From: Mytilisepta virgata
Taxonomy: Eukaryota > Mollusca > Bivalvia > Mytilida > Mytilidae
DNA: 64,000 bases
Assembly: GCA_028015205.1 (NCBI GenBank)
Contig: CM051514.1
Coordinates: 39,448,150-39,512,149 of the forward strand
Direction of reading: 5' to 3'
In this document: one piece after another, positions 43,459 to 46,500 of the stretch
How the letters are laid out: every line of letters begins with the position of its first letter
Numbering within the stretch: the stretch's first letter is position 1
The notes under the pieces: model-generated
Seen by the model: the letters and a program-made list of their open reading frames with translations, nothing else
The model's database searches: none
Told to the model about the DNA's origin: nothing
Translations under genes and position numbers: made by a program

Positions 43459-43578
43459 TCATAAAATTGTACATTTTCTCTTTGATTTCTTTTCTTTATT
43501 TTTGACTTTCTTTCCGTTGCTTTGTTTACTGGCTTCCATCTTCCGTGATCTGATTTCTCTCATTAAATCATAAAACAC
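43459..43578 (-). CDS. RALA: Ral alternative terminal exon B (CTIL tail)
   Basis: Acceptor CTTATTTTCCAG, starts [15 protein letters not shown] in phase 0, matches VFFDLMREIRARKMED of vertebrate RalA, and ends in a polybasic run then CTIL and TGA at 43461-43459. CTIL is a geranylgeranyl-type CAAX box like CCIL/CCLL of RalA/RalB. This is the canonical Ral tail. Confidence 0.93.
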   Translation of the reverse strand: MFYDLMREIRSRKMEASKQSNGKKVKNKEKKSKRKCTIL

Positions 43579-46500
43579 CTGGAAAATAAGTAATAAAATA
43601 ATAACAAGACATACAGACTTATTTATAAATATATGTTTCTATATAAATATTGTACAGAAAAGAAAATAACTGTAAATAAATACTCCAGCTGTATTACAAT
43701 GATTATCATTATGTAATAGTTAAAGCTTGCAGCAGATAATTTGGATAAAAAAATACTTTATAAAACTGGTATACTTTTGTCTATAAATACACGAAGAAAA
43801 CAAATAATTTTTGTTAATAGAATTGATTCTCATTAACTCAGCAACTTACACCCCTGATATCTCAAAGTAATTTAGAGTCCCCAGGTAATATTTAGCACTA
43901 TATTACTCCTTATATGTCAAAATTCCTTTTATTATCTCAATTAACTTTGAGATAACAAGAATTAACTGTAAATCAAAAAGTAGAAATTTAATACCTTTAA
44001 ACTGCTATGGTTTCACCAGTATATGCATAACATGAACGAAGGTTTTTGTTGGATTAACTCCTACAGACACATGACAAAAGTCAAAGGAACATCAGCTTTA
44101 TTGCTGTTCATCCTTAAGTCACATACAGGGCTTCAATTTTGAGAAAAAATTTCACCGACTGTAAAGTTAAAGACTTAATTTCTTTTAAAAGTTCTTATTT
44201 TTCACAGTATGATTTATTTTAATCTTTTGAACTACATGCTTTCAAAAGTCTGAATTAAAAAAATTATATAAGCTGGAACAATGTGTAGCAAATTCTGAAT
44301 TTTAGGTAAGGATCAATACTAACTTTTCAACACTTACAATAAACAAATTCAATTTTTGAAAGATTTTTCTAATGTAAATAAACTACTTAATGTAACTGTA
44401 TATAATATAGATGCCAAGCAGTAGTATATTTAATGGTACAGGAAAAGGATGTTGGTTTTGTATGAACATGTGAAGGTTCATATTCTACTTGATTAGCTTT
44501 AATTTGTACATACATCAGATTATTATAAACAAGTCAAGTAGATATGATGGGCAGGAATTTGGGACACAGGATTGCAATATTAAGGATTACAAAGAAAATT
44601 CTTCATCTAATTGTTTAAACTGACACCCAAGTGAAAAGAATGTTCTTTAAAACTTTATATGAATGGCAATTACTAACAATATCCAAAGTTCATAAGAAGA
44701 TGATGTATATCTTAAACAATAGTAGAATCATTGCACCATGAAATTAAAGCCATGACTTTCGACATATATTCCAAAGTGAAATTTCATGTTAATCTAACTT
44801 CAAAACTCAGTTTTAACCTGAATTTCAGATTTATATCCACGAAACGAAACAGAGATGAAAATCCATTTCTGACAAAATTTAGGCATGGTCATTGGTGAGT
44901 TTTAATATATATAATTTCAAATACTTTTAAATTTACATAGAAGTTGAAATCAATAACAAAATAAGAAAAAAAAACTTTGTGTTGCTAAACTTTTCTGAGA
45001 TATAAGGTGTTAAAAATTTTGCAGAAAAACGAGTTCCTCTAGATTTTTCCTTTGGTTTGAATGGAAAATGTGATGAACTTTAAAATTGTATAAAAATTAA
45101 ACTAATACATAGAATTTCATAAAATTTTCTCATTTAGATCTTTAAGATATGTACAATAAATAAATAAAAAGAAAACAGGGGGTTGCTTGTAAATATCTGA
45201 TACTATAAATGGATTAACCCTGAGGAGTTTGTATAATCTAACCAAAATTAAAAAATCTCACAAGTGACCATCCTTAAATTATTTATAACCTGATATTCCA
45301 TTCAGTAAAGTTTCATACTGATGTGACTTCCATTTCATATCAACTAACTTCAACCTAAATTCCAACAATCTTGTAATGATAATCACCCAACCAAGAAATA
45401 AAGCTTAAAAGGCCACAGTTCCCATTTTGACAAATAAATTATTGTCATTGTGCTGTTTCTCTATGGTGAAGTTTAACAAGTACCTAACTTCTGAAGTTAA
45501 AACAGCTGGACAATAGCAACACAAATCAAAAAATGATCTCGCCAAACAACAAAAATAAAACAGTTTCTGACCTTAAAAGACAAGAGAGCAATTTTCAAAA
45601 TAAAGAATAGCAATAAATTTGCTTTTGCCTTGCTATTAAAATTATTGCAGTATTCATTATAATATTCATTCTCAGAAACCCAATTTTATTGAAGACTGTC
45701 CTGTAAAGTTAAATACTGTACATTGCCAGGTTGTATATCTGATTCTGTTTATAATTTTATACAATCACTGATCTCTGGTTATCATGTTGCTATATACATG
45801 TATCCTCAGTTTACATATTTATAAAAAAAAGAATGAAATGCATGCAATGTATTACAATGCGAGGCATAAATAACAGTGACTCGGTAAATCAGTGTTATAT
45901 GCAGTTTTGGCAGAGGAATATTGGACAATGACAGATAATGCAGTGTTTGATTTGTGGAAAACAGGTGAATAAAGTTGAAATCAACAAACCTTGGACTGAC
46001 AAGTGATCAGCATACCAAATTTTTGTATTTAATTTTTCTTTTTTTAACAAAAACAAAAAAGAATGAAAACTTTGAGTTTTATTGCATATATAATGATTAC
46101 TAAACAATGCAATTACAATGACTAAATTAAATCAAAGAACATCTATCTTTTTGAGAATTTTTCACTGCAATACACAGCATTTTTGCTGATTTTTAATTTC
46201 TTTTTGTTCATCAGAGTCTGTTTTTTGTTTTGGTACACTGGTTGATTTCAAACTAGCTGTCTTCTTGTTACTTAAAGTACTAGTTTTTCCACCAGTCCGT
46301 GGGTTCAATTTAGCTTTGTTCATGTGGCGCAATAAATCATAAAAGGCCTGCAAACAAAACGTTCAAGCCATATGTAAGCAGGATGAAAAACATTCCGCAG
46401 ACTACAGACAAATGAAAGTTTATACTGTAAAATAATTATTATTTGAAGGGAAGCAATGTTATGATTTCATTCATTATCCCTGATCATATTACGAAAAAAA

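Follow-up and report, generated by a model that had tools for sequence, protein, structure and literature searches.

A mussel Ral gene with two alternative last exons that encode different predicted lipid-anchor tails

Whether a single Ral gene can supply two Ral GTPases that share a G domain and carry different lipid-anchor tails is the question raised by a stretch of the genome of the mussel Mytilisepta virgata, 64,000 nucleotides long (hereafter, the window), the minus strand of which holds a complete Ral gene with exons 1–3 and two possible last exons, A and B. A preprint (PMC9882654) gives KRAS, with its exons 4A and 4B, and CDC42 as the sole two loci with such behaviour among 167 RAS-superfamily members, and Ral is not among the nine genes with C-terminal splicing that its section 13 names besides KRAS. 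An earlier sequence-only reading of the window knew of no switch of this type in Ral; no description of alternative Ral tails was found in the literature searched, which covers a minority of the subscription journals, and Ral isoforms were met as database entries only. The type of switch is known, and Ral as a member is new as far as could be seen: Ral would join KRAS and CDC42 as a third case of a small GTPase with a membrane tail chosen by splicing and, as far as found, would be the first in its own family.

All of the first three exons, which like the rest of the gene lie on the minus strand, have GT/AG borders. The coding part of exon 1 (56710..56817) has a translation ending in FMYDE and the donor GTAGGA; exon 2 (55533..55741) follows the acceptor TTTTTTACAG, ends in TVEF plus the nucleotides AG, and has the donor GTATGT; exon 3 (51997..52189) contains EQILRVK and ends in phase 0 at the donor GTAACT, its 3' border reading GTT GAT AAG/gtaact. 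Exons 2 and 3 both match PF00071. Joined to exon A, exons 1–3 give a complete Ral of 231 amino acids and, joined to exon B, a complete Ral of 209 amino acids, so that a shared G domain is followed by either of two last exons in the same phase, each with its own stop codon and CaaX box. On re-reading of the window, the coordinates and sequences of exons 3, A, and B proved exact as first reported, as did the phase 0 end of exon 3 and the presence of two phase 0 last exons, A before B, both open to a stop and a CaaX box.

Exon B (43459..43578) starts with VFYDLMR, is polybasic, and ends in KRKCTIL and a stop. Its acceptor context is ...ttattttccag, with a pyrimidine content of 0.78 over the 18 nt before the acceptor; an ATTAAA lies 806 nt past the stop and the first AATAAA (42318..42323) 1135 nt past it. 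The solved chains nearest to form B are RalA 2bov_A (6e-102, query positions 2–209) and Ral-a 5cm8_B (1e-100), which we take to be the human and the fly protein, respectively. Judged by its sequence, form B is an ordinary Ral, with the G domain and effector region present and a polybasic tail with a CaaX box of the geranylgeranyl type, as the predicted lipid.

Exon A (46162..46347) comprises 61 codons, open in DNA of 31.5% GC, and ends in QKCCVLQ and a stop. Its start, AFYDLLR, is homologous to that of exon B; near its end, the net charge is low, and an extra Cys adjoins the CaaX Cys. The exon is preceded by ...ttttgtttgcag, and the 18 nt before its acceptor are modestly rich in pyrimidines (0.61). 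An AATAAA polyadenylation signal (46078..46083) is located 78 nt past the stop, with a T-rich stretch after it, and a simple scan for GTRAG and GGTA yielded a single weak donor-like site in the 400 nt past the exon. Given its own close AATAAA and just one weak donor-like site, exon A reads as an alternative terminal exon, most simply one at whose own poly(A) site the transcript ends. There is one Rbfox-type TGCATG (45846) against 0.55 expected from base content, on which no claim is based, and a third terminal exon, as in oysters, was looked for as another FYDL-like start in the 14 kb after exon 3, with none present.

Chance does not account for exon A. Among 4565 AG-preceded, phase 0 ORFs of at least 30 amino acids from 60 simulated stretches of 12 kb with the trinucleotide statistics of the window, none began with xF[YF]DL. 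The 14 kb after exon 3 contain 12 AG-preceded, phase 0 ORFs of at least 20 amino acids with a CaaX end. Those with FYDL are the two exons themselves plus two ORFs that extend B in frame; three of the others are suffixes of one exon or the other, and five have no FYDL. Exon A has one match in the 1.03-Gb genome (E = 4e-34), and the next of the three candidates scored has E = 3.49 and 31% identity. The strongest evidence that exon A is real comes from Mytilus californianus, in which the NCBI model "ras-related protein Ral-a-like isoform X1" terminates in exon A, with CCILQ; 164 of 170 residues encoded by exons 1–3 and 49 of 61 encoded by exon A are identical to those of the window. The central part of the exon drifts between the Mytilus species, and the last 16 residues differ by a sole V/I exchange. 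Thus, simulation, ORF scan, the single genome match, and the M. californianus isoform together rule out a chance ORF, and the FYDLL...CC-aaX exon that the sequence-only reading had suggested seeking in other molluscs is found in M. californianus.

Two protein searches, one of them represented by the best 120 of 200 matches, yielded 179 different Ral clusters at 90% identity. The clusters were picked by likeness to two A-tail queries, so that all counts given here describe the matches listed and are not a census. Low-charge tails of a second class, comparable to exon A, are present among the matches listed in oysters, Mya, freshwater snails, a nemertean, and malacostracan crustaceans. The oyster X1 tails read CFYDLLRM...GCCLIL, GCCQIL, or GCCQLL, and the X3 tails VFYDLMR[AT]I...TTKCCVVM, CVLM, or CVIL; Mya X1, GFYDLMRLM...GGWCVLL, is low in charge and lacks the upstream Cys. 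Lymnaea and Physella have GCSCVLM and GCNCVLM, and the nemertean Tubulanus X3 has AFYDLLRTM...RGCCNIQ. The malacostracan tails include Penaeus vannamei X2 (KCCCIS), Oratosquilla X2 (KCCTIS), and Armadillidium (SCCIIL), along with Macrobrachium X2 and Eriocheir X2.

Thirteen same-species pairs of forms from 11 species could be compared among the matches listed: nine of a low-charge with a polybasic tail, and four of X1 with X3, both low in charge (Ostrea edulis, Crassostrea angulata, one from Saccostrea echinata, and one from C. virginica). Ten pairs have at least 151 identical residues counted back from VETSAK and split exactly after RANVDK, the junction found in the window. Two more, from Physella and Saccostrea cucullata, likewise have at least 151 identical residues; here the two last exons start alike, so that the split comes a few residues inside them. 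In the remaining pair, from Meganyctiphanes, agreement extends just 6 residues before VETSAK. The Armadillidium pair consists of two records without isoform labels, and the Tubulanus and P. vannamei pairs also differ near the N terminus. Between species, exon A itself is conserved in M. californianus, and other genera have tail switches of a comparable kind at this junction.

With regard to expression, the database isoform models comprise the A form in M. californianus and both A and B forms in other genera; no M. californianus B form is listed by name among the matches. The Mytilus cluster P0001 has 17 members from the sources ncbi, uniref, and nr and none from "lgn," a label that presumably stands for Logan assemblies of public reads, so that the case for exon A being expressed in Mytilus comes from gene models in databases, whereas the mussel-like B form P0002 does have an lgn source. 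P0061, a bivalve-like whole ORF with the low-charge, upstream-Cys tail AFYDLLRAM...QGCCVVL, is found on lgn contigs no longer than 1698 nt, a length that points to spliced RNA unless the species has an intronless copy. One mussel-like candidate for a third 3' end, P0113 (VDKVYIMVSL...), was rejected: intron-like sequence flanks its exon 3 on both sides, so that this lgn contig is probably genomic.

Apart from these, oyster Ral (P0004, P0006, P0010, P0013, P0035, P0039, P0040, and P0043, among others) has three tails, the low-charge CC-aaX tails X1 and X3 and the polybasic X2, all of them listed for Saccostrea echinata and Crassostrea virginica. In some genera X3 ends in CVVM or CVLM, and Magallana gigas and C. 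angulata have CVIL instead, which may mean that prenyl type has shifted between close relatives. Five Ral ORFs from jgi and lgn sources (P0140, P0143, P0145, P0146, and P0162) combine KTNVNVDK or KTNLNVDK with the low-charge tails GRGCCVLM or GRGCCQIM. A fish-like RalB ORF on a 932-nt lgn contig (P0137) has the low-charge tail TKCCLIL, while many fish RalB tails are polybasic; it may represent the tail switch in a vertebrate.

The tails fall into two classes. Of the 179 clusters, 11 had no usable CaaX tail and were left out; the other 168 tails were scored for an upstream Cys, within 4 residues before the CaaX Cys, and for net charge over the 12 residues before the CaaX Cys. Among the matches listed, 40 of the 42 tails with an upstream Cys have a net charge of +2 or less, and 120 of the 126 without it have +5 or more. 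By these sequence features, the two classes are chemically distinct, an acylated-type and a polybasic one, and the two mussel tails conform to them, exon A with a putatively acylable Cys and little charge and exon B polybasic without that Cys. A second sorting by a slightly different rule gave 43 A-class and 126 B-class tails among the matches listed, with 10 set aside. Residue 6 of the exon, which played no part in the sorting, is Met in all 126 B-class tails and another residue in 32 of the 43 A-class tails, related sequences being counted many times. The final residue is Leu in 123 B-class tails (Phe in 2, Met in 1) and varies in the A class (Leu 16, Met 12, Ser 10, Gln 4, Tyr 1). According to PMC1175975, GGT1 clearly prefers Leu at the final CaaX position and FT accepts many residues, including some Leu-ending boxes; by this preference and this breadth, CVLQ predicts a farnesyl and CTIL a geranylgeranyl group. 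Since oyster X1 ends in Leu and X3 in Met or Leu, prenyl type is not the conserved part. What is conserved in the A class, as far as the residues tell, is the loss of the polybasic stretch together with the upstream Cys, and not farnesylation.

Taken together, we consider it very probable that one Ral gene gives rise to two Ral GTPases through a choice between two terminal exons with different lipid-anchor tails. When exon 3 is spliced to the upstream exon A, with its own stop and polyadenylation signal, the transcript would end there; when exon A is skipped, exon 3 would be joined to exon B. As the whole G domain is common to both, the two forms should interact with an identical set of GEFs, GAPs, and effectors. 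Form B, with its polybasic tail and single prenyl Cys (CTIL, geranylgeranyl type), would be held at membranes by prenyl and charge. The tail of form A is long and Ser/Thr-rich, has no basic block, and carries a Cys beside a farnesyl-type CaaX box (CCVLQ); lacking the charge, this form should need palmitate on that Cys for stable binding, and its membrane residence would then be set by a cycle of acylation and deacylation. The two forms would thereby have different membrane addresses. Lipid types, palmitoylation cycling, distinct addresses, and regulated use are what we infer from the tails. One prediction is that the two mussel forms could differ in their response to inhibitors of farnesyl- and of geranylgeranyl-transferase.

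How the low-charge tails originated is less clear-cut. That those of molluscs and crustaceans had several separate origins, which is compatible with a two-protein Ral gene in the mussel, has in our estimate about an even chance. For this comparison, the first 14 tail residues, without the features used in sorting, were compared with one representative per group, A-type v best polybasic. Against separate origins, the A tails of the window (50 v 41) and of M. californianus (51 v 38) are nearest to P0061, and the Lymnaea tail is nearest to Mytilus (47 v 43). On the other side are ties or near-ties for Mya X1 (43 v 43), oyster X1 (46 v 45), the nemertean (40 v 40), and the crustaceans (42 v 42), a lean of the NVNVDK group to polybasic tails (36 v 38), and oyster X3, which is clearly closer to polybasic tails (48 v 58) and hence looks like a second duplication that gave oysters three tails; on its sequence, X3 appears to have originated independently. 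A tree of 51 tails (49 of the 179 clusters plus the two of the window; 39 columns) is poorly resolved, with long branches flagged. It requires 2 changes of the A label versus 17.2 in shuffles, which speaks against repeated origin, although the tree shares the sorting features; two further low-charge tails, P0049 and P0052, are nested among the polybasic ones, and a single change explains the A label in 0 of 200 bootstrap trees, the starred branches being compatible with one change. More tentatively, and with clearly less than even confidence, the acylated-versus-polybasic switch may predate the split of molluscs, nemerteans, and crustaceans, having been rebuilt at least once, in oyster X3, and may be basic to invertebrate Ral biology. 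Under such an ancient origin, the switch would have been overlooked because the vertebrate Rals listed are almost all polybasic. Several protostome groups show the same two tail chemistries side by side, a recurrence that suggests selection for a single gene to serve two membrane addresses.

It is improbable that exon A is spliced at a low level with no separate function, as noise or as early polyadenylation that lowers Ral output. The 12 of 61 residues that differ from M. californianus, with drift in mid-tail, would fit this, as would P0001 without an lgn source; however, the AFYDLLR start and the CaaX-proximal segment are kept between the Mytilus species. A dead exon should have lost its frame and its CaaX box. 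The combination of upstream Cys and low charge recurs, moreover, in molluscs, a nemertean, and crustaceans, and residue 6 divides the classes (Met in 126/126 B, another residue in 32/43 A) even though it was not a sorting feature. Exon A is very unlikely indeed to belong to another Ral or Ras gene or to be a misassembled or retrocopied fragment within the intron, despite an ORF with a reverse transcriptase domain (58720-59106) that lies some 2 kb upstream of exon 1, given that M. californianus links the same exons 1–3 to the same exon A and that the exon has one genome match, an acceptor, and a polyadenylation signal. The choice of tail looks like a real, overlooked way of obtaining two Ral proteins from one gene, and work on shellfish and shrimp Ral may be seeing just one of two or three proteins.

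KRAS4A mRNA keeps exon 4B as 3' UTR, unlike mussel Ral, in which exon A has its own polyadenylation signal; CDC42 exons 6 and 7 are alternative last exons. The parallel with KRAS 4A/4B drawn in the sequence-only reading stands for the logic of an acylated upstream and a polybasic downstream tail; CDC42 exons 6/7 are at least as near a parallel, given the polyadenylation signal. PMC9882654 and PMC9663995 describe an upstream KRAS exon with a palmitoylated tail and a downstream polybasic one, both with CaaX, and treat charge versus acylation as established for KRAS4B versus NRAS, KRAS4A, and HRAS; the same tail logic is established for CDC42u and CDC42b (PMC10883850). KRAS differs from the mussel gene in that 4A arose in jawed vertebrates, KRAS4A retains short polybasic stretches, and KRAS forms are farnesylated in general. 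For CDC42, PMC10883850 describes exon 6 (brain, CCIF) and exon 7 (ubiquitous, CVLL) as alternative C-terminal exons behind a common G domain, with one tail palmitoylatable and the acylated-tail exon bearing the lower number. CDC42 differs in belonging to the Rho family and in that both its forms are reported to be geranylgeranylated, with the palmitate within the CCIF box, on its final Cys. Mussel Ral has its extra Cys upstream of the farnesyl-type CVLQ, and the last exon encodes 61 residues. RALA, RALB, and fly Rala resemble the mussel gene in the G domain and the exon B tail; in the literature searched, no second tail was found described for Ral.

Several minor observations concern the wider locus and genome. 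The ORF at 58720-59106 matches the reverse transcriptase family PF00078, and its neighbours at 59006-59752 and 60167-60865 match no Pfam family. Within exon 3 (51997-52189), the mussel G domain has an insert where oysters have NDDT, and M. californianus has the insert too. Clusters of Ras-family matches in the mussel genome are located on C11 (28.6-28.7 and 29.6-29.7 Mb), C12 (70.3-70.4 Mb), and C14 (15.3 and 94.3-94.4 Mb), and the two C11 blocks resemble copies of each other.
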